Of a stretch of 64,000 nucleotides of DNA, positions 12,920 to 63,326 are shown piece by piece. The notes under the pieces are model-generated. The model was not told where the DNA came from. It saw nothing but the letters and a program-made list of their open reading frames with translations, and searched no databases. The stretch is from assembly GCA_022844125.1 (NCBI GenBank), contig JALHMI010000001.1, positions 62,001 through 126,000 on the forward strand, in the 5' to 3' direction. The first letter of the stretch is position 1. Each line of letters opens with the position of its first letter. This stretch comes from Pirellulales bacterium (GTDB taxonomy: Bacteria > Planctomycetota > Planctomycetia > Pirellulales > PALSA-1355). The translations under genes were made by a program, and so were the position numbers.

Positions 12920-12953
12920 ATATTAGCCCGAAGCGCGAGCTTCGGGCTAATAT
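12920..12953. repeat. Perfect 15-bp stem-loop with GCGA loop
   Basis: ATATTAGCCCGAAGC, loop GCGA, then the exact complement. It lies 6 bp after the permease stop. It has no T-tract, so it is either a dispersed planctomycete hairpin or a transcript-processing/partial termination structure within the cassette. The in-frame ATG at 12952 is formed by its right arm. Confidence 0.75.
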
Positions 12954-12993
12954 GAGCACGTTTTCAGACAATTACGCTGCGAGGTATCGGAGC

Positions 12994-15311: not shown

Positions 15312-15752
15312 ATGACGCGCTCGCTCTTGCCGCTGATCCTGCTGTTAGTTCCACTGGCTGCGGTTGCGCTCGCGGCAGAAGCGGCCAGAGAGATCACGTT
15401 CGACGACATCAAGCTCGAGATGCAGAAGGGGGACGCTTACGACGCCTCGAAGCTGACCGACAAGGTTCGAGGGTACGACGGCAAGGCGATCAAGATCCGC
15501 GGCTATATTCTGCCCAGCTTCCAGCAGAATGGCATCAAGCAGTTCATTCTGGTCCGCGATAATATGGAGTGTTGCTTCGGGCCGGGCGCTCTGCTGCACG
15601 ATTGCGTGGTCGTGGAAATGATTCCGCCCGCGACGACATCATTTTCGACGCGTCCGGTGAGCGTGGAAGGCAATTTTTCCATTCGCGAACTCAAGGCCCC
15701 CGATGGCACCTACCTGGCCATCTATCATCTCGATGGCAAAGAAGTCAAATAG
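15312..15752 (+). CDS. Secreted DUF3299-like protein with CCFG motif
   Basis: The first ~22 residues are a signal peptide (LLPLILLLVPLAAVALAAEA). The remaining ~120 residues repeat the domain of the previous gene: KAIKIRGYILPSF, IKQFILVRDNMECCFGPGA and CVVVEMIPP. At 146 residues it is a soluble periplasmic single-domain protein. It overlaps the start of the next gene by 20 bp, which points to co-translation. Function unknown; the shared CCFG site and the neighbouring ABC transporter suggest a periplasmic partner of that transporter. Confidence 0.75.
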   Translation: MTRSLLPLILLLVPLAAVALAAEAAREITFDDIKLEMQKGDAYDASKLTDKVRGYDGKAIKIRGYILPSFQQNGIKQFILVRDNMECCFGPGALLHDCVVVEMIPPATTSFSTRPVSVEGNFSIRELKAPDGTYLAIYHLDGKEVK

Positions 15753-16893
15753 CCGGCACGTGCGGCTGTGGCTGGTTTGCACGGTGCTGGTGTCCAGCGT
15801 GCTGTCGGTTGAGATGGCGCGCGGCTGCCCGTTTTGCACGGCGCTCGAGCCGACGCTTTCACAGCGCCGCGCATCGTCCGCGGTCACGCTGCTGGCCGAA
15901 GTCGAAACGGCTTCGGCAGGCGGTTCGGCCAGGCTGAAAGTGCACCAGGTGCTGTCGGGCGACGAAACCCTTCTGGCGCAGTCGCAGTTTTCCGCGCCGC
16001 TCGATCTGGCCGTACAGTCTGGTACGCTGGTCGTGTTGTTCGGCAGTGACGCAGCGGACGGCGAGCGCGAATGGCATGCCGTGGCAGTCGATGAAACGAG
16101 CGCCGCGTATCTCGCTCGCGCGCCGGGCACTGACCTGCCGGCTGCCGAGCGGCTGGTGTACTTCGCCAGGTTCCTGGAACATCCCAACAAGCTGGCGGCC
16201 GAGGACGCGTACCTGGAATTTGGGCACGCGCCGCTGGACGTCGTGGCCGAGGTGTCGCCACGGTTCGAAATGGAGCAGGTCCGCACGTGGCTCACAGCAC
16301 CGGAAGTGCCGGGGCACCGCAAGGGGTTCTACGGCCTGCTGCTAGGACTCGCCCGTGAAGATCGCGACAAGACCGCCAACGCCGAGTTGCTGCGCAAGTT
16401 GATCGTTGCGCCCGAGGACGACTTTCGAGCCGGTTTCGACGGCATCCTGGGCGGGTATCTGCTGCTGGAGGCGCTACCTGGGCTGGAGCTGATCGAATCG
16501 CGTTATCTGTCGGACACGAAGGCCGCGGTGGGGGACGTGCGGCATGCGCAAACGGCGCTGCGGTTCTATCACGAGTACGGCCGCGCGATACCGCAGCAGC
16601 GGATCTGCGAGGCGACCCGGCACTTGCTGGCCCGGCCGGAGTTTGCCGCCAGTGCGATCATCGACCTGGCACGCTGGAACGACTGGCAGCCGCTCGATGA
16701 GATCGCGGGGCTGTATGCGGAGCCGGCCTATGCCGAGCCGACGATTCGCCGCGCGATCGTGGGCTATCTGCTGGCCTGTCCCGAGGCGCAGGGCAGGCAG
16801 GCGCTGGCGGATCTACGTTCGATCGATCCAGGCGGAGTCGCAGCGGCCGAGCAACTTCTCTCGCGGACGGGCGCGGTGCCGCAGGCCCAGTGA
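15733..16893 (+). CDS. Secreted CPFC-motif protein, paralogue of the 12994 product
   Basis: ATG 15733 gives 386 residues with a signal peptide (HVRLWLVCTVLVSSVLSVEMA) and then GCPFC (C32, C35). It shares several blocks with the 12994 product: an FLE...AAEDAYLEFGHAPL-like block, a helical middle, IIDLARWNDWQPLDEI (IPDLARWEDWTVIDRL in the paralogue) and LLACPEA near the end (LRACPNP in the paralogue). It lacks the linker and membrane anchor, so one paralogue is anchored and the other soluble, mirroring the two DUF3299-like proteins between them. Confidence 0.75.
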   Translation: MAKKSNSRHVRLWLVCTVLVSSVLSVEMARGCPFCTALEPTLSQRRASSAVTLLAEVETASAGGSARLKVHQVLSGDETLLAQSQFSAPLDLAVQSGTLVVLFGSDAADGEREWHAVAVDETSAAYLARAPGTDLPAAERLVYFARFLEHPNKLAAEDAYLEFGHAPLDVVAEVSPRFEMEQVRTWLTAPEVPGHRKGFYGLLLGLAREDRDKTANAELLRKLIVAPEDDFRAGFDGILGGYLLLEALPGLELIESRYLSDTKAAVGDVRHAQTALRFYHEYGRAIPQQRICEATRHLLARPEFAASAIIDLARWNDWQPLDEIAGLYAEPAYAEPTIRRAIVGYLLACPEAQGRQALADLRSIDPGGVAAAEQLLSRTGAVPQAQ

Positions 16894-16927
16894 CGAGCCC
16901 CAAGCGCGTGGCACCCAGCCTTCGGGT

Positions 16928-18460
16928 CTACGACTTCTTGTCTTGGTCGTCGAGGTCCTTGAGTCCCAGCCGGGCCAGCCATTTGCCGCGGGCCGGTTTG
17001 GCCATTTCGACGGTGTCTTCGCCGGCGGCGCCGGAGGGTCGGCTGTCCTGATCGAGTTGCAGGACGCGCAGCTTTTCGTCGAGTTCGGCACGTTCGCGGG
17101 CCAACTTCGCGCGCTGCACCGAGATTTCGATTTCGGCCTCGCCGATTTTCTGCCGCCATTCCTGTTGCAGGGCGACCAGCTTTTCGCGCTCCTGGCGAAT
17201 GATCTCGTCGCTGTCCAGCAGTTCATTGATCGCGGCTGAGCGAGTCCCGCCGCCGCCGCTGAGCTGTTCGAGTTGTTCGCGGAGGGCTTCGATCTCGCGG
17301 TCCTTCTGGGCCACGACGCGATCGGTGATCTGGATCGTGCCCTCGATGCTGGCTCGTTCCTCGCGTGCGTCTTCGTCGTCATCGGTATCGGCTTCCAGCG
17401 AGGCCAGCAGCTTCTGCTTCTGAGCTTCCCAGTTGAGTCCACCGCCACCGACTGCCGCGGCTGGCGAGCCGCCGCCGCCGCGATGCTTGAGCTTGTTTTC
17501 CAGTTCGGCATTCGTCCGCTTCAGTTCGCGGACTTCCTCGACGGCCATCTCGAACCGTCGCTGCAAGTCTTCGCGCTTGCGCGAATCGCCTTCGCCGCTC
17601 GGGCGGTCGGCAAGTTTGGCTTCGGCCGCCGCGAGCTTCGTTTCCAGTAGTTCGACCTGACGCGTGAGCTCGCGCACCTCGGCCGGATCGGCCCCGCGCA
17701 CCGGGTTATTTTCACTGGCATCGAGCTCCACGGCGTGCCGCTGTTGGGCACGCTGCAATTCGGCCCTAAGCTGCTCCAGCTCGCCTTCGAGCTCGGCATG
17801 CCGAGCGGACGACAGCCGATCGAGCTCGGCCTTGCGCTCTTCGAGCTCGCCGAGGTGCGCAGCACGCTGGGCCTTAAACTCGCGGGCAATGCGCCGGCGC
17901 TGAGCCTTGGTCTCTTCGAGTTGGGCTTCGAGTTGCTCGCGCTGCTCCTCGGTTTCCTTGTCCAGCGATTGCATCCGCGTGCGGGCGGCCGTGAGCTGGG
18001 CCTGCAAGTCCGCAAGCTGCTCGCGGAGCGTGGCCAGCTCTACGCGGCGCTGTTCGTCGTGCGACTGGACTTCCTTGAGCAGGGCGTCGCGCACCCGCAG
18101 TTCCTGCTCGCTCTTGGCCCGCGCGACCTGGGCCTGTTCGAGTTGCTGGCGGAGGGCCAGACTTTCGGCATCGAGCGCCTGGAACTGCTGCTTGAGCGAT
18201 TCGTACTGGGCCTGCATCGCGGCCACGGCGTCGGTATCGCCCCGGCCGCTGCCGGCGGCTTCCGCAAGGGCTACCGACTGGGCAACTTCGCTGGCCAGGT
18301 GCTGGAGCTGTTCGGCCAGCGTGGTTTCCAGGCGTTCGAGGTACGCATCCTGAGCAGCGAGCACGTCCTGCGCGCGACGGCGGCGCTCGCCGTGAGGACC
18401 TTCCAGCGGCAGAGCGTGTTCCGCTCCAGTGCCGAGGCTTCGTTCTTCCATGGTTGCCAT
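16928..18460 (-). CDS. Long coiled-coil protein
   Basis: Start ATG at 18460 (MATMEERSLGTG); a second ATG three codons in is equally possible, and the upstream extension is Arg-rich noise. Of 510 residues about 400 are continuous coiled coil (LRQQLEQAQVARAKSEQELR, QREQLEAQLEETKAQRR and similar). It is interrupted by a Gly-rich hinge (HRGGGGSPAAAVGGGG) and ends in a Lys/Asp tail. There is no membrane segment. It is probably a cytoplasmic scaffold or structural protein. It lies opposite to the cassette at 10942-16893 and stands alone. Confidence 0.8.
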   Translation of the reverse strand: MATMEERSLGTGAEHALPLEGPHGERRRRAQDVLAAQDAYLERLETTLAEQLQHLASEVAQSVALAEAAGSGRGDTDAVAAMQAQYESLKQQFQALDAESLALRQQLEQAQVARAKSEQELRVRDALLKEVQSHDEQRRVELATLREQLADLQAQLTAARTRMQSLDKETEEQREQLEAQLEETKAQRRRIAREFKAQRAAHLGELEERKAELDRLSSARHAELEGELEQLRAELQRAQQRHAVELDASENNPVRGADPAEVRELTRQVELLETKLAAAEAKLADRPSGEGDSRKREDLQRRFEMAVEEVRELKRTNAELENKLKHRGGGGSPAAAVGGGGLNWEAQKQKLLASLEADTDDDEDAREERASIEGTIQITDRVVAQKDREIEALREQLEQLSGGGGTRSAAINELLDSDEIIRQEREKLVALQQEWRQKIGEAEIEISVQRAKLARERAELDEKLRVLQLDQDSRPSGAAGEDTVEMAKPARGKWLARLGLKDLDDQDKKS

Positions 18461-40113: not shown

Positions 40114-41292
40114 ATGCGAATCCCCGAGCGCAAAGTACACAAGGCCAGCGGCCACGACCGTGTCCGTTGGAACAAGGAGGAGTACTGGTTCGGGAAGCAC
40201 GGTTCGCAGGAGAGCGACGACCGCTACAAGGCCTGGGTCGCTGAACTGCTCGCCGGCAACCCGGATCCGCCGTCACGGCCGCGGCAGCTGCTCGAAGTCG
40301 ACGAGCTTGCCGGCCGGTTCCTCGACATGGCCAAGCGCAGGTACAGCCGCGGCGAGTATCACAACCTGCGGCAAGCGATCGGGGCGCTGCTCAAGAAGCA
40401 CGGCGACACCCGCGTCGACAACTTCGGCCCGAAGGCCCTGATCGAAGTCCGCGAAGCGATGGCGACCGCCGGCTGGCCGAGGCCTCGGATCAACGAGCAG
40501 ATCAACCGCGTGCGGCGGATCTTCCGCTGGGGTGTGTCGCAAGAGCTGGTGCACGTGCACACCTCGCTCGCGCTGCGTGAGCTGCTGCCGATCCGCAAAG
40601 GCGAAAAGGTGGGCGACGTGGTGCCGCCCGAGTCGACGCCGGTGAAGCCGGCCAAGGCCTCGCAGATCGAGCAGATCCTGCCCGAGCTGGTGCCACAGCT
40701 GGTCGACATGCTGCAGCTGCACGCAATCGTCGGCATGCGTCCAGGTGACCTGGTGATCATGCGGCCGGGGGACATCGACCGCAGTGACGACGTGTGGGTG
40801 TACCGGCCAGCGAGTCACAAGAATGAGTGGCGCGGCCAGCACCTGGCATACGCGATCGGCCCGCGGGCTCAAAAGATCCTGGCGCCGTACCTCGAAAATC
40901 GCAAGCCTCACGTTCCGTGCTTCCAGCCGGCCGTCACGCGCAAGCAGCGGCAAGAGATTGTGCATGCGAAGCGGAAAACGAAACGTACCAACCAGGCGAC
41001 CAAGCGGCTGATCAAGCGGCCGATGAAGATCAAGGATCACTACACAACGCAGAGTTATGGCCGGGCGATCCGGCGTGCGGCCGAGCGGCTGACGAAGGAT
41101 GATCGCGAGGCGTTCCTGGCGCTACACTTCGCGCCGAACCGGCTGCGGCACACCAAGGCGACCGAGCTGCGGGCCTCGCACGGCATTGAAGCCGCGCGAG
41201 TCGCCCTCGGTCATTCGAATATCAGCACTACGCTAATTTACGCCGAAGCAGATCTGGCGAAGGCGAAAGCGATCGCCCTTGAATCCGGATAG
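40114..41292 (+). CDS. Tyrosine recombinase, prophage integrase
   Basis: A 392-residue integrase with an N-terminal arm/core-binding region (about residues 55-160) and a catalytic domain. Catalytic residues are R209 (GMRPGDL), R345, H367 (LGHSNIS) and Y376 (TTLIYAEAD). The usual first His of the HxxR motif is Asn here (N342, PNRLRHTKAT); from memory this is frequent in planctomycete integrases. It catalyses integration at the tRNA-Gly next to it. Direct repeats lie just upstream. Confidence 0.92.
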   Translation: MRIPERKVHKASGHDRVRWNKEEYWFGKHGSQESDDRYKAWVAELLAGNPDPPSRPRQLLEVDELAGRFLDMAKRRYSRGEYHNLRQAIGALLKKHGDTRVDNFGPKALIEVREAMATAGWPRPRINEQINRVRRIFRWGVSQELVHVHTSLALRELLPIRKGEKVGDVVPPESTPVKPAKASQIEQILPELVPQLVDMLQLHAIVGMRPGDLVIMRPGDIDRSDDVWVYRPASHKNEWRGQHLAYAIGPRAQKILAPYLENRKPHVPCFQPAVTRKQRQEIVHAKRKTKRTNQATKRLIKRPMKIKDHYTTQSYGRAIRRAAERLTKDDREAFLALHFAPNRLRHTKATELRASHGIEAARVALGHSNISTTLIYAEADLAKAKAIALESG

Positions 41293-46774: not shown

Positions 46775-48928
46775 CTAGGGAGCTGGGGTCGTGGTGGTCG
46801 TGGTTACGCCGCCGCACGAATCCGGACCGGTCGCGCCTGGACACGGGTTGCAGCAGGGGAAGATGTACGGGCCGTCTGGTGGCGTGCACGCGGAACCGAG
46901 TAGCCCGGGGAAGTACAGCTCAGCGACGTCGCCACTGCACGCGCAATCGCTCTCGTCGCCGCTGCAGGTATTAAGTGGGGAGAGGACAAAGAAGTGGGGG
47001 AAAGTGCTTCCGCACACGATGCTGCAATCGCCGCTGCAGGTGTACTCGGGATTGCAGGGAGCGGCGGTCGTCGTCGTCGTGGCCGAGGCACACGCCGCCG
47101 CGCACGCCGCGAACGTGGCATAGGGACCGCCGCAGTTTGGCCGCGTCGGTTCGCCGAGCTCACACGGTCCACCCTGAACGCAGGTTACCGTCCCGAAGCA
47201 GTCGCCGCCGGACTCGCCGCAGCAGTAGTAGGGGGCGGGGGTCGTTGTCGTTGTCGTTGTCGTCGTGGTCGAGCAGGACGCACTGGCGAAGCACAGGGGC
47301 TGGGAGGCAAACGGTCCGTCGCAGAAGCTGCAATTGATGTCGGCGAGACAGTCGTCGGGCGTCATTTGCACGCAGCCGGCAAGCGAGCAGTCACCTTCGA
47401 GCTGAGCGTTAGGATAGATCTCCGCACACAGCCAGGGGACGGGGGTGGTGGTCGTCGTCGTGGGAGCCGGCGTGGTTGTGGTCGGGGCCGCGGTTGTGGT
47501 GGTCGGGGCGCTGGTCGTCGTCGTACCACCGAAGCACGGCGTGCGCTGCCGCTCGCATTCTTCGTGGGACGGCAGCGCCGGAGGTGAGCAATCACACTCC
47601 TCGCCACAACCATCGTCGATCAGATCCCAACCTTCCGCACCGTCACCACCCCACAGGCAGCCCGTGCCACAGGGATTGGCTGTCGTTGTTGTCGGGACTT
47701 GTGGACACGGCGCCGTGCAGGCCATCTTCTTGAGTGATGACCAGCCCGTGCCCGGTGAGCTGGGCGCCTCGGAAGTGCACTGCACGACTGTTGGCTCGGG
47801 ACTGCAGGGATCGCATACCGTGCAGCCGCAGCCTGAGAGAAGAGTCCACTCGTCTTCGCGTGGATCCCACCAATAGCAGGCGTTGCCGCACCCGTAGCAG
47901 CCAGACCCAAGGATCCCGCCGCCTCCGCCGCCCCCCCCGCCGCCGCCCCCGCCGCCGCTCGTTGTTGTTACGCCGCCAATCCCTCCAGTTTCGCACAAGC
48001 CGCCGCCGCCAAGCCCACCAGATCCACCGCCACCGCCACCCCCGCCCCCGCCGCCCCCGCTAGGGTTCGGGCACGGGAGCGTCGGAGCCGGGCATTCCAC
48101 GTACGGCGGGCAGTCGCCACCGTCCGTGCGTTCCCAGCCGAACGGTGTGCAAATCCACTGGCACTCGCACGGCGGCGGTTCCGTGGGGACACATGTCGTC
48201 GTTGTGACCTCAGGAGCCAGCGTTGTTGTCGTCCCGCACTCCAGCTCAGTTGGTTCCGGGGGATTACGGATGCAAAGTGTATAGGTGCATTCCCCCGCCT
48301 CACTGCCACAGAAGTCCGGATAGAGCGGCTGGCAAACGGGCTCTGCGGTCGTCGTGGTTGTGGTCGTTGTGGTAGTCGAGCCACTCGGGGCAGGCGTCGT
48401 CGTGGTGGTCGTTGGACACTGACACGGGACGCTGGTCGTGGTCGTCGTCGGTGTCAGCTCCGAGCAGCCGTTGTCGTCGAGCGTCCACACACCGGCGACG
48501 TCGTCCCAGAGCCATTTGGCCATCCCCTCGCAGAGCGGCCCACCGGGCGTGGCGGTCACCGACGTAAGGGACCGCGGCGCGGCGCTCACGATCACGCGGC
48601 TACCGGCCTCAGTGACCATGTCGAATTCATCGCCAGCCCCCAGGAACCAGCTTGAGGCTATCGTACCGAACCGTTCGCCCCCGGTCGTGGCATTTGCTTC
48701 GGCATGGAACGGCGTGAAGCCGGTCCCCTGGCGCTCAGGCGAGATCTCGCTCGGTCCGTTGAAGAGGATCTTGGCCGAAGAAATCCCGCTGGCACGTGGC
48801 TTACAGACGCAGTACACCCGCACGCCGTCGCGGTACATGTGATCGCCGATCTCCATCGCGGCGAACGCGGGAATCGCTTCGTCGGACGTGTTGTAGACCG
48901 CCTGCGGCGAGACCTTCATGAAGCTCAT
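46775..48928 (-). CDS. Threonine-linker, cysteine-rich prophage surface protein
   Basis: 717 residues. The first ~140 residues form a normal beta domain (KVSPQAVYNTSDEAIPAFAA) and probably attach it to the tail. The rest alternates cysteine-rich modules of 30-60 residues with linkers of poly-Thr/Pro (up to ten Thr in a row) and two long poly-Gly stretches. Cysteine pairs recur, for example ECDCSP, GCGCTVCDPC, PCECQWIC and CADINCSFC-like spacing. It has no signal peptide, as expected for a virion protein. It overlaps the preceding tail gene by 4 bp. The plus strand shows long false frames here because of the repeats. Possible role: receptor-binding or decoration fibre. Confidence 0.75.
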   Translation of the reverse strand: MSFMKVSPQAVYNTSDEAIPAFAAMEIGDHMYRDGVRVYCVCKPRASGISSAKILFNGPSEISPERQGTGFTPFHAEANATTGGERFGTIASSWFLGAGDEFDMVTEAGSRVIVSAAPRSLTSVTATPGGPLCEGMAKWLWDDVAGVWTLDDNGCSELTPTTTTTSVPCQCPTTTTTTPAPSGSTTTTTTTTTTAEPVCQPLYPDFCGSEAGECTYTLCIRNPPEPTELECGTTTTLAPEVTTTTCVPTEPPPCECQWICTPFGWERTDGGDCPPYVECPAPTLPCPNPSGGGGGGGGGGGGSGGLGGGGLCETGGIGGVTTTSGGGGGGGGGGGGGGILGSGCYGCGNACYWWDPREDEWTLLSGCGCTVCDPCSPEPTVVQCTSEAPSSPGTGWSSLKKMACTAPCPQVPTTTTANPCGTGCLWGGDGAEGWDLIDDGCGEECDCSPPALPSHEECERQRTPCFGGTTTTSAPTTTTAAPTTTTPAPTTTTTTPVPWLCAEIYPNAQLEGDCSLAGCVQMTPDDCLADINCSFCDGPFASQPLCFASASCSTTTTTTTTTTPAPYYCCGESGGDCFGTVTCVQGGPCELGEPTRPNCGGPYATFAACAAACASATTTTTAAPCNPEYTCSGDCSIVCGSTFPHFFVLSPLNTCSGDESDCACSGDVAELYFPGLLGSACTPPDGPYIFPCCNPCPGATGPDSCGGVTTTTTTPAP

Positions 48929-50604: not shown

Positions 50605-51321
50605 CTAGAATGCCGTCGGCGGAGTGAGCGTGAACGGAGAGGCCGATTCGTACGTGTAGGACCAGCTCACCGGGTAGTGCGTGTACCGATCGCCGCTCTT
50701 CTTCGGCGAGCCGTAGGTCACGGTGAACTTGTCGTTCTGCGGCGAGTCCAGCAGCGCGGCGGGAATCCCCGGATAATTGCTGAAGCCGACGGCGTTGCCG
50801 CTCTGCGTGGCCCGGCAAACGGTCTGCTCGTGCGTCTGCTGCTCGATCGGCGCGCCGTTTAGCGGTTCGAGCAGGGCGGTCCGGGCGCCGCCGTTGCCCG
50901 TGTAGCTGATCGTCTCGGAGTAGCTGACGATGTAGCCGCTCGCCCCGGGCGTCTCGACGTCTCCTTCGAGCACGATGTTGAACGTGCGGCGGTTGACGAG
51001 CTCGGTGCCGCGACCGTCAGGATAGCTGACCGGCGTCGTGACGCGCACGCCACCGATGCACGCGCTCGAGAGTAGCTGGTGCGGGACGCCGACGCCGGCG
51101 AGCGTCATGACAAAGTCCCCGCCCCCTTCGCTGAAGGCGTTTTCGAGCTCGGCCAGCTTCGTGAGCAGCGTCGCCTGGTTGGCCTCGACGAGCGCACCCG
51201 TGATGTTGAACGTGTTGGTGACCGACAACTGACGCTTGAACTCGTCGAGGTTCGAGCGTTTCGTGATGGCCACGCCGGCGGTGCCGATCACAAACTGATA
51301 GCCGCGGTAGGTGATTTGCAT
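50605..51321 (-). CDS. Tail protein downstream of tape measure (distal tail candidate)
   Basis: A 238-residue beta-rich protein: MQITYRGYQFVIGTAGVAIT, FNIVLEGDVETPGASGYIVS, YSETISYTGNGG and SWSYTYESASPFTL. Its start overlaps the tape measure stop by one base (TAATG). The place between tape measure and hub fits a distal tail (Dit-like) protein. No sequence motif confirms it. Confidence 0.58.
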   Translation of the reverse strand: MQITYRGYQFVIGTAGVAITKRSNLDEFKRQLSVTNTFNITGALVEANQATLLTKLAELENAFSEGGGDFVMTLAGVGVPHQLLSSACIGGVRVTTPVSYPDGRGTELVNRRTFNIVLEGDVETPGASGYIVSYSETISYTGNGGARTALLEPLNGAPIEQQTHEQTVCRATQSGNAVGFSNYPGIPAALLDSPQNDKFTVTYGSPKKSGDRYTHYPVSWSYTYESASPFTLTPPTAF

Positions 51322-53582
51322 TAGGATCGCCCCGCCTGGATGCCTTCCTTGGTCCGCCGGTCCGCCGCGGCCTTGGCATCCGCCGCGCGTCGCTTCTCAG
51401 CCTGGTCGACGATCGCCTGCACGAGCTGCTCTTGCAGCGGTTCGAGCTGCTCGGCGATCTGCCGGGCGAGATCCTGCGTGTTGGCCTCCATCAGGATCCG
51501 GATCTCGCTCTCGATCTTCGCGACGTTGCCCTGGGCGCCCTGGGCAGCGGCCGACGACGCCGCGGCCTGGGCCTGGGCATCAGCCACACGCGTCTCGCCG
51601 CCCGCGAACAGGTCACCTCCGCCGGCAGCCAAGGCGCGCTGACGATCAGCCGCAGCGGCCTGGTCGCCGAACTCGTTGTAACCTCGGGCCGTGCGGCTCT
51701 CTTCAGCGGACAGGCTCTCGCCGCGATCGAGCTTTTCCTTGATCCGCCGGAGCTTGTCCTGCTCGATCGGATCGGCCTGGCCGAAACGTTCCAGGTCGCT
51801 GCGGTACTTGTCGCGATCGGTGTCCGCGGCACGTTGGGCCTCGTCGGCGATCTGCTTCGCCTGGGCGGCCGTCTCCCGAGCGGCGTCGAGCTGCTTGCGG
51901 GCGCCGTCGACGGCGACCTGCTGGGCTCGCTCGGTGATCGAGAGCTTCTCTTGCTCGAGCCGCTTCAGCTCCTGCGTGATCTCGACGACGGCCTGGGCCG
52001 TGATTTCGGCCTGAGCGAGGGCCGATTGGTTGTTCGGATTGTTAGTCGCGTTCTGAGCGGAGCTGCCGGCGATCGCCTGGGCCACCGCAAGCTGCCGCCG
52101 CGCGTCGCGGAGCTGCTCGCTATTGGTGAGCTGGTCGGCGCGCAGACCTCGCTCTTCGAGCGGGATCGACTTGTCGGCCAGGACCGACGCACGAGCGCGG
52201 AGCCCTGTCCCCTCGGCGCCGAGGCCTCGCAGCTGCGTGTCGTACGCCTGGTCCTTGCCGGCCCGCTGCCGGAGGTCGGCCGCTTCGCTCTCGCCGGCCG
52301 CGATCCGCTTGAGCAGGCTCTGCTCGGCGTCGGTGATTCCGAACAGGAACTTGTCGACGCCGGCCTTGAAGTTCTTGTCAAAATAGTAAAGCGTGCCCAC
52401 AACACCCGCCGTGGCAACGGCGGCAACGCCGAGCGTGGCGATGCCGGCAGCTCCACCGACCGCCGCACCGGCACCCGCGAGCAGGCTTCCGGCGCTGCCG
52501 CCTGCGGCACTTCCCGCCGCGCCGGCCGCAGCACTGCCCAGTGCACCAGCAGCACCGCCTGCGCCTCGTGCGGCCCCCGCAGCACCGCCTGCGGCCTCGA
52601 CCGCCGCCGCGGCGGCCCGCACCTGCAGATACTTCTGCCAGGCCTCGGTCAATCCACGCATCACCGTGATGCTGCCCTTGGCCACGCTGTGGAACGCTTC
52701 GAAGCGGACGATCACTTTGAGGATCTTCTCGGCGTCGTCTTCGGCCACGGCCCCCAGGTACGTCAGGCCGCGGGCCACCTCGAGCGCACCGCGGCCGGCC
52801 TTCAGCAGCGAGTCTTCGAGCTTCTTGTTTCCGGTTTCAATCGCCTTGGTGCTGCGTTCAACGGCCCGCTCGGCCTCGGCGGCTTGCTTGGCTTGAAACT
52901 CCCCGTGGGCGTTGGCGAGCGACTGATCCAGGGCGTGCGAGTCTTTCACGAACTCGGCTTCCGCTTTGCGGCGGTCGGCCAGCTCCTTGTCGATCTCCTT
53001 GGCCAGCCGCGCGCCCCACTTCATCTGAGCATCAGCCTTAGCGGCCGCGGCCTTCTCGACAGACTTCACCTCTTCAGCGAGTTCGCGGTCGATCTCCTTC
53101 GCAAGCCTCGCCGCCCATCGCATCTTCTCAGATTCCTGCCGCTTCAAATCGGCATCCATCTGCTTAGACAGGCGAGCGCCCCACCTCACTTGGGCAGCTT
53201 CCTGGTCCTTTAAATCTTTGTCCATTTGCTTAGAAATCGCCGCCCCCCATTTGATCTGGGAAGCCAGTTTTTCCTTGTTGGCTTTGTCCTGTGCCTGGGC
53301 GATCTCGTTATCAATCGCGAGCTGCTCGCGAGCACCTTGGGCGAACGCCTTTTGCTGCTCTGCAAGTGACTGCTTCTGCATCTTGCCGACACGAGCCAAG
53401 TAGTCGGCGAGAGCTTTTTCAGCGTCTCCGGAATTGAGCGACGGAATTTTGAATCGTTGGCGTGTAAGGTCATCCTGGAGCTTCCTAGCCCGACCGTGGA
53501 TGCGATCGAAGACCGCCTCCCAGTCTTGCGTCAGCTCTGTGCCGAAGCGGAAGTAGATCGCTTTGTCGTCTTCAGCAACCAT
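51321..53582 (-). CDS. Tail tape measure protein
   Basis: 753 residues, mostly coiled coil, with a hydrophobic centre rich in Ala/Gly (about residues 330-410, including ATLGVAAVATAGVVGTLYYF). This is the typical make-up of tape measure proteins that set tail length. Residues 108-205 hold four repeats around a KWGARLxKEMDxDL-type core; the tryptophans are at 112, 134, 156 and 189 (steps of 22, 22 and 33, multiples of 11). It follows the frameshifted chaperones directly, the conserved order in long-tailed phages. Confidence 0.82.
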   Translation of the reverse strand: MVAEDDKAIYFRFGTELTQDWEAVFDRIHGRARKLQDDLTRQRFKIPSLNSGDAEKALADYLARVGKMQKQSLAEQQKAFAQGAREQLAIDNEIAQAQDKANKEKLASQIKWGAAISKQMDKDLKDQEAAQVRWGARLSKQMDADLKRQESEKMRWAARLAKEIDRELAEEVKSVEKAAAAKADAQMKWGARLAKEIDKELADRRKAEAEFVKDSHALDQSLANAHGEFQAKQAAEAERAVERSTKAIETGNKKLEDSLLKAGRGALEVARGLTYLGAVAEDDAEKILKVIVRFEAFHSVAKGSITVMRGLTEAWQKYLQVRAAAAAVEAAGGAAGAARGAGGAAGALGSAAAGAAGSAAGGSAGSLLAGAGAAVGGAAGIATLGVAAVATAGVVGTLYYFDKNFKAGVDKFLFGITDAEQSLLKRIAAGESEAADLRQRAGKDQAYDTQLRGLGAEGTGLRARASVLADKSIPLEERGLRADQLTNSEQLRDARRQLAVAQAIAGSSAQNATNNPNNQSALAQAEITAQAVVEITQELKRLEQEKLSITERAQQVAVDGARKQLDAARETAAQAKQIADEAQRAADTDRDKYRSDLERFGQADPIEQDKLRRIKEKLDRGESLSAEESRTARGYNEFGDQAAAADRQRALAAGGGDLFAGGETRVADAQAQAAASSAAAQGAQGNVAKIESEIRILMEANTQDLARQIAEQLEPLQEQLVQAIVDQAEKRRAADAKAAADRRTKEGIQAGRS

Positions 53583-53993
53583 TTAGAGCGTCCTTGCTAG
53601 GGCCACCAGCTCCTGCATCCGCTCGCGTTCCTTGCGGGCGTCCTGAATGCGATCACACTCCCTGATCACACCATCGACTACAGCTAAGTTATTTACCAGA
53701 ACGGAGTCTCGCCGTTCACGTCGCGAGAGACAGACGCCGCCTGTCGCTTTGACCAGGCGGTAGAGAACCAGCGTTTGTAGATTCTTACCTGACAGCAGGT
53801 GAATTCGCTCTTGTTCTGGGCTTTGCTTCGGGCACTTTTCGCAAGGCGGGGGCACGGACCGGATTACATCCAGTCGCTTGCCCTCAGCCCCGAGGAAAGT
53901 ATCGCGCTCGCCTGTTTCGAAGTCGTACGAAAATTTCTGACACTCCGCACAGCTGAAGCGAGCCAGGGCGGGGTGAAGCATTAGCAACTTCAC
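53583..53993 (-). CDS. Tail assembly chaperone, frameshift-dependent C-terminal part
   Basis: An open frame of 136 codons with GTG at 53993 as formal start. It contains a possible zinc site (CAECQKF and CEKCPKQSP). The GTG lies inside the stem of a hairpin and has no free ribosome binding site. The frame is open back to the slippery site at 54011-54005, so it is most likely made only as a -1 frameshift extension of the 145-residue upstream protein, giving a ~285-residue product like the lambda G-T fusion. Independent initiation at GTG cannot be excluded. Confidence 0.75.
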   Translation of the reverse strand: MKLLMLHPALARFSCAECQKFSYDFETGERDTFLGAEGKRLDVIRSVPPPCEKCPKQSPEQERIHLLSGKNLQTLVLYRLVKATGGVCLSRRERRDSVLVNNLAVVDGVIRECDRIQDARKERERMQELVALARTL

Positions 53994-54011
53994 CCCGCAG
54001 ATTAGTTTCCC
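53968..54011 (-). promoter_or_regulatory. -1 programmed ribosomal frameshift element
   Basis: On the minus strand the last sense codons of the 145-residue gene form G-GGA-AAC, a perfect X-XXY-YYZ heptamer (54011-54005), directly followed by its TAA stop. After a 6-nt spacer (TAATCT) comes a perfect 11-bp stem GCGGGGTGAAG/CTTCACCCCGC with a 9-nt loop (53998-53968). Slipping back one base reads GGG-AAA-CTA-ATC and joins the frame of the downstream gene with no stop between. Product: ...DEGN-LICG-VKLLMLHP... Confidence 0.88.
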
Positions 54012-54439
54012 TCATCGGCAGCCCCAGTCTCTGGCTTCGCCAGCTGATCAAGGTAGTCACGATCTTCACTGCCGGCAGCCTCGGGTGACGGATCCGACGG
54101 GTCACTTGGCTTGAGCCCGAGCACGATCAGATAAACACTGTCGAATAGAGCTGGTGCCAAATGAGCGAGCCAATACGCGTTCACAGGTACGGACTTCACG
54201 GTCGTGCCGTCCTCATCCACGTACGTCGCATCCCAGCTGATAACCTTTTCGAGCAAGAGCTTGATTGCCGCGGCATTCGTTTTGTCAGCATCTCCTTTCT
54301 GCGCGATCGCCTGCATCCGATCACGCTCAGCTACAAGGCAGGGGCGATATTCCCCTTCAAGCTTGCCGTGCAGCCCCTTCTTGGAGTTGACCCGCAAATT
54401 GCGGGTATATCCGTCACGAAAAACGGTGGGATCACTCAT
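54002..54439 (-). CDS. Tail assembly chaperone, short (unshifted) form
   Basis: A 145-residue protein located between tail tube and tape measure genes, the conserved place of the gpG-type chaperone. It is helical (AERDRMQAIAQKGDADKTNA, AAIKLLLEKVISWDATYVDE) with an acidic C-terminus (DEGN). The leader GGAAAGGATTC (54448-54458) precedes it. Expected role: coats the tape measure protein during tail assembly, with a minority of longer frameshifted molecules recruiting the tube protein. Confidence 0.78.
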   Translation of the reverse strand: MSDPTVFRDGYTRNLRVNSKKGLHGKLEGEYRPCLVAERDRMQAIAQKGDADKTNAAAIKLLLEKVISWDATYVDEDGTTVKSVPVNAYWLAHLAPALFDSVYLIVLGLKPSDPSDPSPEAAGSEDRDYLDQLAKPETGAADEGN

Positions 54440-54479: not shown

Positions 54480-55358
54480 CTACGAGAGCGCGATGGCCGC
54501 GGCGAGGCTCGCCGTCGAGCTGACGCGACGGACCGTGCCGTTGATGGGGAGCATGATCTCGCCCCGGCCGTTGAAGTTCGGCTTCTGCAGCGGGAGCTGC
54601 ACGGCGCCGAGGGTGAACGTGAGGATCTCCGTGCCGTTCGTGTAGACCAGCGTCCCGCCCGTGAGCGCCGTCACGCCCTTGTCGTACAAGGCCGAGACTT
54701 CCGTGCTCGTGAACGGCACGACGCAGGCCAGCGTGATCAGGCAGTCCTGCTCGGGCAGGTCGGTCCGCGTCTGGCTGTTGAAGTAACGGTCGGCGACGAG
54801 CGAGTTGTCGATCGAGAGCACGACATCGTCGAACGGACGGGCCGCGCTGGCGATCGTGAACACGCCGTGGTGGTGCATGAACGGCTGGCCGGTCGAGAGC
54901 GTCAGGCTGGGGAAGGCCGCGCTGGCTTCCGTCTTCCCCAGCAGCTCGACCGACAGGTTCAGCGGCCGGCCCTTCGAGCTGCGGAACGTGGCCTTGTTGA
55001 CCTTGCAGCCGGCGTAGAGATAGTTCGCGCCGATCTTCTTCACGTGGAAGTAGAACTCGGGCAGCGTTTCGGCGAGCGTGTACGCGTAGGGGCCGCTCCC
55101 CGACTCGGCCGTGCCGAGGATCCGCGGCAGCCACTTGCGCAGGAACGCCGTGTTCGGATGGCAGGAGAACTCGCCGCCAATGTCGTACAGGCCTTCGGAG
55201 ACATTCTCGCTAATGTGCTCGCGACGCCCTCGCAGGCCCTCCGTCTCGACGTGCGTCGTGCTCTTGCCGACGGTGCAGGTGTTGAACTCGTAGCCCTCGT
55301 CGACCGGGTTGCTCGCACCGGCCCCGACGACCGCCTGGTGTCCCATAGATGGAGCCAT
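54480..55358 (-). CDS. Major tail tube protein
   Basis: A 292-residue beta-rich protein (HVETEGLRGRREHISENVSE, FHVKKIGANYLYAGCKVNKA, VVLSIDNSLVADRYFNSQTR). Position just before the chaperone/tape measure genes and length fit a tail tube protein. Its leader GGAAAGGATCTC (55363-55374) overlaps the stop of the preceding gene and is a strong ribosome binding site, as expected for a highly made structural protein. Confidence 0.72.
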   Translation of the reverse strand: MAPSMGHQAVVGAGASNPVDEGYEFNTCTVGKSTTHVETEGLRGRREHISENVSEGLYDIGGEFSCHPNTAFLRKWLPRILGTAESGSGPYAYTLAETLPEFYFHVKKIGANYLYAGCKVNKATFRSSKGRPLNLSVELLGKTEASAAFPSLTLSTGQPFMHHHGVFTIASAARPFDDVVLSIDNSLVADRYFNSQTRTDLPEQDCLITLACVVPFTSTEVSALYDKGVTALTGGTLVYTNGTEILTFTLGAVQLPLQKPNFNGRGEIMLPINGTVRRVSSTASLAAAIALS

Positions 55359-61957: not shown

Positions 61958-63226
61958 CTACGCCTGGACGCGACCGCGTGCGACGTACCGAGGATCCTTG
62001 ACGAACGGCACGCCCATCTCGTCGCAGAACATGCTGAAGATCAGGCGGCGGTCCTTGCTCTCGTAACCTTCGCCGTTGATCTTCTCCACGGTGAACGGAA
62101 TGTTCTGCGTGTAGCCGAACGCCTTCTTGAAGTCGCCGGCGAACCACAGCCCCGAGGCATTCGCCACGCTGTAGTTCAGACCGTCGGCCGCACGGGCACG
62201 CCGGTACGCGTACGGATAGGTTGGCGAGCCGACCAGGTTGAGCAACCCCGAAACCGGATTCGCACCGAGACCCACCTCGGCAGCACTGCCCGTGCGCCGT
62301 TCGATGCCCGTGTAGTTCAGGATGCCCTTGGCGTTCAGATAGTTGCGGGGCATCACGAACATGTCTTTCGGAATCACCGAGATCGGCAGGCCGTTCTCCT
62401 GGTCGACCATTTCGGCGAACAGCTGGAGCAAGGCGTCGACGTCGCGCCAGTCGACGAGCGGCTGCTGCACGTCGTTGATCCAGTTGCCGCTGGTCAGGTA
62501 CGTGTTGTAGGACGTGCCGCCGTAGTTGTAGGTGTTCGTGATTCCCAGGAACACGTCCAGCGTCCGATTCTCACGCTTGAGCGCGAGCGAATCCGAGGCC
62601 GCTTCGGCTTGCCGCAGCAGATCCTTGGTCATGTCGAACATCACCGCCTCGACCGTGACGTCGATGCCGTTGGCGAAGTTCGTCGTCTCGGGCGTGGTGC
62701 TGTAACGTTCCGACAGACCTTGTCGCGGGTGCCGGTGACCAGGCTTGCGCTCCTCGGCCGTGTCGCCGGATCCGGCAATGCCGATGAACTTCTCCGACCG
62801 CTTGTTGGTCGGAATGGTTTCGAAGAGCTGCTCGGCGACGTAGTCCGGCTTCTGATACGTTTCGAGCATCTTGGCTTCGAACAGGCCAGCAGCAACGCTG
62901 TTGAACGCGCTGATGTTGGCAAACGTCGACGGCACGACGGCCGCGGTGCCGGCCGCTTCGAGCACGTCGACCTCTTCGTGCGGCCGCACACCCTTTTTGA
63001 GGATGTTGCCGGCGTCGATTCCGAGGATCCCGAGGGCCAGCGCGTTGAGCGAGATCGCGTCGGGCTTGACCGCCGCGCTTTCGAGCACGTTGCGACCGAG
63101 CAGCGGATCGAACCGTCGCGAGCCGATCTTCGGATCTTCGAGCCCGAGCAGCTGCAGCGCCTTGTGGGCGAAGCCGGCCGGGCCCAGCGAGTCGTACATG
63201 TTTTTGACGGATACACCGTAGTACAT
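61958..63226 (-). CDS. Major capsid protein
   Basis: ATG at 63226 is chosen because GGAAAAGGAATTC (63245-63232), the leader seen before other late genes, lies directly upstream; a GTG at 63295 has none. 422 residues with LLGRNVLESAAVKPDAISLN, FLGITNTYNYGGTSYNTYLT, DMFVMPRNYLNAKG, YPYAYRRARA and LIFSMFCDEMGVPF. Length and place in the head module fit an HK97-fold capsid protein. No scaffold or protease segment is visible in the window. Confidence 0.68.
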   Translation of the reverse strand: MYYGVSVKNMYDSLGPAGFAHKALQLLGLEDPKIGSRRFDPLLGRNVLESAAVKPDAISLNALALGILGIDAGNILKKGVRPHEEVDVLEAAGTAAVVPSTFANISAFNSVAAGLFEAKMLETYQKPDYVAEQLFETIPTNKRSEKFIGIAGSGDTAEERKPGHRHPRQGLSERYSTTPETTNFANGIDVTVEAVMFDMTKDLLRQAEAASDSLALKRENRTLDVFLGITNTYNYGGTSYNTYLTSGNWINDVQQPLVDWRDVDALLQLFAEMVDQENGLPISVIPKDMFVMPRNYLNAKGILNYTGIERRTGSAAEVGLGANPVSGLLNLVGSPTYPYAYRRARAADGLNYSVANASGLWFAGDFKKAFGYTQNIPFTVEKINGEGYESKDRRLIFSMFCDEMGVPFVKDPRYVARGRVQA

Positions 63227-63326
63227 GGTGGGAATTCCTTTTCCCCCGAGCTGATGCACGTCCTTGTAAAAATCGCCAGGGGCATTGGTGGCCACCGCCG
63301 CCCCCAGCGCTCGGGTTTCGTTTCGC

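Follow-up and report, generated by a model that had tools for sequence, protein, structure and literature searches.

Two small tail genes in a prophage of a Pirellulales bacterium are very probably joined by programmed −1 ribosomal frameshifting, at a signal of the kind known from lambda G/GT. This conclusion was reached by sequence comparison, and it draws on the signal itself, its conservation, the frame relation of the two genes, selection and covariation in a downstream hairpin, and one natural in-frame fusion, each of which can be read directly from the DNA. The signal lies on the minus strand of the window (i.e. the whole 64 kb stretch of DNA that was analysed), and its predicted product is a 285-aa fusion of the first and second gene, encoded between the tail-tube and tape-measure genes.

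Anatomy of the frameshift signal

The slippery heptamer GGGAAAC, which the original prediction had placed correctly to the base, was found on the minus strand at 54011–54005, in frame as G_GGA_AAC, within the codons GCC GAT GAG GGA AAC TAA. The zero-frame TAA (54004–54002, minus) adjoins the heptamer and provides the first 3 nt of a spacer that, with the TAA counted in, is 6 nt long (TAATCT, 54004–53999). A hairpin of 11/11 Watson-Crick pairs with a 9-nt loop follows (53968–53998, minus), such that the minus strand reads GAG GGA AAC TAA TCT and then the left arm GCGGGGTGAAG (53998–53988), the loop TTGCTAATG (53987–53979) and the right arm CTTCACCCCGC (53978–53968). After the slip, the −1 frame begins L-I-C-G-V-K-... 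and continues for 140 codons into the second gene, with no stop until 53585–53583. The formal GTG of the second gene, at 53993 within the left arm of the hairpin, opens an ORF of 136 codons in the ORF list (53583–53993, minus). All of these elements, including the spacer, the perfect stem, the open −1 frame and the buried start, had been described beforehand and were reproduced here.

Zero-frame X_XXY_YYZ sites occur 15 times in the window (6,276 codons in 17 genes), and only the GGGAAAC at 54011–54005 lies directly against its stop. A perfect 11-bp stem enclosing a loop of 3–12 nt is found at two places in the 64 kb, one of which is the frameshift hairpin; the sole other short-loop palindrome of this kind lies at 12920–12960. 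For the 111-nt region the folding energy is −46.7 kcal/mol, compared to −33.8±3.4 kcal/mol for dinucleotide shuffles (z = −3.8; 0/200 equally stable). A search against Rfam gave no match.

A strong GC-rich inverted repeat between two genes might also be a transcription terminator or attenuator. Such an element is poorly matched by this hairpin, which lies within the second coding sequence at a distance from the heptamer that is kept in relatives, and whose stem is not followed by a T run (CACCCCGCCCTGGCT); the probability that it terminates or attenuates transcription is considered vanishingly small.

Gene neighbourhood of the prophage

The genes run in the order capsid, then further along tail tube, two small genes and a presumed tape measure gene. 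The major capsid gene (61958–63295, minus; Pfam Phage_capsid_4, E 1.7e-7) and the tail tube protein gene (54480–55358, minus; Phage_tube_2, E 1.5e-18) were identified by domain matches. Directly downstream of the tail-tube gene is the first tail-assembly-chaperone gene (G-like), which has 145 codons from ATG to TAA (54002–54439, minus) and was assigned on the basis of its relatives, a structural model and gene order. It is followed by the −1-frame extension, a T-like domain of 140 codons plus TAA with a CxxC...CxxC motif (53583–54005, minus), assigned from its conserved family and a model. The presumed tape measure gene (753 codons; 51321–53582, minus) was recognised by position and length only, and had no confident match in Pfam or PHROG. 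This layout, in which two small ORFs, the second in the −1 frame, lie between the major tail protein gene and a tape measure gene presumed from position and length, is that of a G/GT cassette.

A tyrosine integrase gene is present on the plus strand (40114–41292; Phage_integrase, E 2e-11), and portal and terminase genes lie just outside the window (locus L113). The portal is of the lambda type (Phage_portal_2, E 1e-7, slightly under the curated Pfam cut-off) and the terminase RNaseH domain gave a weak match (E 0.0015). Capsid, tail tube, portal, terminase and integrase matches agree with the earlier view that the element is a prophage. Expansion of the PF07596 (SBP_bac_10) family is a hallmark of planctomycetes; the host genome contained 33 matches to it and 14 control genomes contained none, in line with the planctomycete host that had been proposed. 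Elsewhere in the tail region, a 717-codon ORF (46775–48928, minus) encodes an unusual low-complexity protein that is Cys-rich and has runs of Thr and Gly. Upstream of the terminase gene, ORFs for a trypsin-like protease and a UvrD-type helicase were observed (L113:9975–11621 and 15647–17314, minus).

Conservation of the slippery heptamer

Whole-genome searches across the order (296 genomes) identified the first gene in 14 genomes, the host's own counted, and the second gene in 14, with both together in 13. The second gene was also found in another family of the same class and in 27 viral-contig loci; no relative was detected among ∼50,000 GenBank phage records (cultured phages) or in plasmids. 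Single-protein searches of viral contigs and scans of genome contigs returned nothing. From genomes and viral contigs, 34 non-redundant loci that carry both genes as separate frames were assembled for comparison; these belong to the same phage group and so are not fully independent. Other loci recorded were L011, which has a distant first gene but no second; L073, probably a false match; and L074 (G519:C43:141–446), where a further copy of the T-like gene has no recognisable first gene or heptamer upstream.

The second gene is in the −1 frame relative to the first at all 34 loci. The original prediction had pointed to related prophages as the place to look for a conserved heptamer and stem, and an in-frame X_XXY_YYZ heptamer occupies the homologous position in 33/34, with a single-base variant in the remaining one. 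The sequences at the homologous codon are AAAAAAC (29 loci), GGGAAAC (4) and AAGAAAC (1); the last, in a second copy within its genome (G096a; L031, G096:C2), is one base off AAAAAAC and has kept its hairpin. The zero-frame stop adjoins the heptamer in 30 loci and lies 1–8 codons further on in the other four, and since its position varies, it is the slip site and not the stop that is conserved.

Outside the slip site, AAA makes up 33% of Lys codons and AAC 59% of Asn codons in the first genes, and 16% of codons end in A; given this usage, xxA AAA AAC would be expected at ∼3% per locus even with K-N fixed. In a maximum-likelihood phylogeny built from the second protein, the four GGGAAAC loci are scattered, requiring 4 changes, at least 2 of which are forced by well-supported branches. 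Because AAAAAAC and GGGAAAC swap on the tree, slipperiness and not the encoded peptide has been kept, and heptamer swapping of this kind is hard to explain except through selection for slipperiness.

A run of at least 6 A is present in 29 of the 34 loci, as would suit joining of the two frames by transcriptional slippage. The length cited for that process is 9 A or T (PMC5009743), however, which these runs do not reach, and the window and three other loci have GGGAAAC with no long homopolymer; a conserved downstream hairpin, moreover, suits a ribosomal stimulator. We regard transcriptional slippage as extremely improbable at these loci and ribosomal frameshifting as the better account of them.

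Selection and covariation in the downstream hairpin

Downstream folding was evaluated over 42 nt starting 5 nt past the heptamer, against synonymous shuffles in which the −1-frame protein and its codon usage were held fixed; the outcome depends on the RNA energy parameters used, those for 37°C. Across the 34 loci the mean z was −2.05 (Fisher p 4e-21), and the hairpin position had a median rank of 2.7% along both genes. The same outcome was obtained with 55- and 70-nt windows, and the hairpin of the window alone gave z −3.8. Relatives that retain both genes and lack heptamer and stem, a case that would have told against the original prediction, were looked for; the heptamer was present in 33/34 loci and folding was more stable than in the shuffles (negative z) in 32/34.

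One simple hairpin model for all loci was ruled out, as pairing register and loop length vary, and covariation was consequently assessed in the 11 loci that share the window's pairing register. Within these loci 87.9% of cells pair, and in 7 of 12 pairs both partners have changed. The covariation score was 0.448, compared to 0.232±0.031 in shuffles (0/500 as high); none of the 500 shuffles attained any of five covariation measures, and a one-base slide abolished pairing. The hairpin of the window is of a short-loop type, and long-loop stems were seen at approximately the same distance from the heptamer in five loci (L033, L040, L044, L051 and L052). A stimulatory hairpin is expected to start 4–10 nt past the heptamer (PMC4066793), and the 6-nt spacer, the shuffle test and the covariation together conform to a bacterial −1 frameshift site stimulated by a stem-loop.

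An internal Shine-Dalgarno stimulator was also considered. SD-like sequences across the loci show a positional peak 8–13 nt upstream of the heptamer (54012–54035 in the window, minus), and this peak is explained by the encoded residues, as synonymous shuffles reproduce it (Fisher p 0.58); such a stimulator is not claimed.

A natural fusion and the start of the second gene

At one locus, G104a (L021, G104:C1:2919952–2923314), both genes form one open frame. Its junction, DLTNLIEGV, fits the shift product predicted for relatives (DAKNLIEGV in G100 and DLKNLTEGV in G062). The other head and tail genes of G104a are collinear with and of similar length to those of G031 and G062 and look intact, although the fusion is followed by a short and divergent gene. 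With respect to the gene that follows the pair, loci L115–L118 have in the tape-measure position a gene of 169–297 codons, compared to 753 in the window, followed by 0.4–1 kb without a long ORF, a pattern that might mean very short tails or another kind of protein in that position.

Two ORFs where G104a has one could in principle reflect a sequencing error, or a decaying prophage in which a disabling frameshift mutation split a single gene. The same frame break, heptamer and hairpin recur in 33/34 non-redundant loci from both genomes and viral contigs, and both genes are intact in the window, so that we attach next to no probability to error or decay.

Alternatively, the second gene could be translated on its own by translational coupling, from its GTG or from a TTG or ATG, with the heptamer and stem being incidental or controlling the start. 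In the window a GTG does follow shortly after the TAA, and an ATG or GTG is found near the junction in some relatives. Yet the stretch from the slip to the first conserved Cys is free of ATG, GTG and TTG in 8 of the 34 loci, which disfavours independent translation, and in the window the stem would bury the GTG. Furthermore, neither the −1 frame nor the heptamer is required for coupling and both are conserved, and the natural fusion in G104a retains the junction residues. Coupling is thus judged very improbable. Under the favoured reading, programmed frameshifting, the GTG at 53993 is probably not the real start of the second gene. The earlier proposal that this gene be annotated as part of a fusion is supported; its product should be listed as the C-terminal portion of the 285-aa protein.

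Predicted properties of the two proteins

Profile searches with the first protein gave no Pfam or PHROG match. Its AlphaFold model (pLDDT 82) was compared to PDB chains, and the three best of 833 re-aligned chains were YqbN (3klu; Z 5.3), 3fgx (5.1) and the HK97 tail assembly chaperone (2ob9; 5.0), all low Z values; among the matches of the model in BFVD are proteins annotated as tail assembly or tape measure chaperones. The model comparisons support, but do not prove, a chaperone-like fold.

The second protein matched no Pfam family and, among PHROGs, only phrog_20027 (E 0.014, function unknown); homology to lambda T was not found. Its model (pLDDT 94) has an N-terminal helix that starts at residue 2 after the shift, the CxxC...CxxC motif and a long C-terminal helix, and gave weak or long-helix matches only, with no clear fold relative, in PDB and BFVD. 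From its position, the natural fusion and its conservation, we infer that the second gene encodes a functional T-like domain.

Heptamer choice and host tRNAs

Heptamers at the phage loci end in AAC without exception (34/34), and none ends in AAG. Both G_GGA_AAC and A_AAA_AAC are reported to be low-efficiency heptamers in E. coli, although some IS elements are presumed to use them (PMC4066793); at the phage loci they would therefore need help from the hairpin or a host that tolerates them better. GGGAAAC was present in about half of the IS3 elements of the same order for which a heptamer was found. At the IS3 orfA/orfB junctions inspected (L119–L148), the heptamer was mostly GGGAAAC or AAAAAAA and rarely AAAAAAG, and where it was GGGAAAC a stop typically followed within a few nt. 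These observations suggest, rather than prove, a host-level preference.

The host tRNA genes that were checked comprise tRNA-Lys with UUU and CUU anticodons and one tRNA-Asn (GUU). The presence of tRNA-Lys(CUU) as a cause of the absent AAG is a lead only, as CUU does not preclude AAG motifs elsewhere (PMC4066793), and a lack of queuosine in tRNA-Asn is unsupported, since the host encodes the queuosine enzyme TGT. A broader and more tentative reading, which we hold to be possible but on balance doubtful, is that the AAC heptamers depart from the AAG/AAA rule of E. coli and that at least one related element, G104a, in which a permanent fusion has replaced the shift and the other head and tail genes are intact, may build its tails without the short form.

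Proposed mechanism and significance

Under the proposed mechanism, most ribosomes would translate the first gene to its TAA and release a 145-aa chaperone, while a minority would be halted by the stem-loop, the P site being occupied by tRNA-Gly paired with GGA and the A site by tRNA-Asn paired with AAC. Stalled ribosomes would slip back to GGG and AAA and go on in the −1 frame (CUA AUC UGC...), yielding the 285-aa fusion, which has a Zn-ribbon-like T domain at its end. Slippage in this host would be expected to have a low efficiency of a few per cent; a shift of 6–7% was reported for an HK97-related chaperone cluster (PMC3711429). If lambda is a guide, the short form may coat the tape measure protein, the rarer long form may recruit the tail tube protein, and both may depart before the tail is completed (PMC5009743).

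Comparative evidence thus extends G/GT-type frameshifting to a planctomycete phage group. Gene callers split this gene pair and consequently call the second half from a false start; the conserved heptamer together with the CxxC motif provides a simple rule by which annotation of the second gene can be corrected. The 34 loci, with two interchangeable heptamers and several hairpin designs, plus one natural fusion, offer a test bed for shift sites of non-model bacterial ribosomes.

The suggestion that a signal of this kind might be undescribed in planctomycete prophages holds for the phage group, which is new, but not for the kind of signal, as many long-tailed phages are known to use G/GT frameshifting (PMC5009743). 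Within the freely readable literature searched, the one paper that brings together planctomycetes, tail assembly chaperones and frameshifting was a general survey (PMC3711429). What is new here is the host group, two families without Pfam or PHROG names, and a reliance on AAC-ending heptamers alone, which are reported to be weak in E. coli.

Comparison with known systems

The shift is of the same type as that of lambda G/GT, as had been claimed: a chaperone-type gene pair of two small genes lies between tail tube and tape measure, and a −1 shift at an in-frame X_XXY_YYZ heptamer close to where the first gene ends (GGGAAAG in lambda) produces the second domain as an extension. The planctomycete phages differ from lambda in that the heptamer ends in AAC rather than AAG, a strong conserved hairpin follows 6 nt downstream, the second domain carries CxxC...CxxC, and the proteins have no detectable homology. 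The HK97-type chaperone (2ob9) has the same gene position and is among the best PDB matches of the first-gene model (Z ∼5), but Z values this weak are not accompanied by any family match at the sequence level.

Both heptamers are known from the same kind of gene pair in the haloarchaeal siphoviruses HCTV-1 (G_GGA_AAC) and HCTV-2 (A_AAA_AAC) (PMC5009743), although these have archaeal hosts. IS3 orfA/orfB junctions of the same order likewise place GGGAAAC directly or one codon before the zero-frame stop and are hairpin-prone downstream, but encode a transposase instead of tail genes, and part of the IS3 set has AAAAAAA. Lastly, E. coli dnaX (SD-like element, A_AAA_AAG and an 11-bp stem) shares the combination of slippery heptamer and stem-loop; it is a different gene whose heptamer ends in AAG rather than AAC, and the SD-like peak at the planctomycete phage loci falls within synonymous shuffles.
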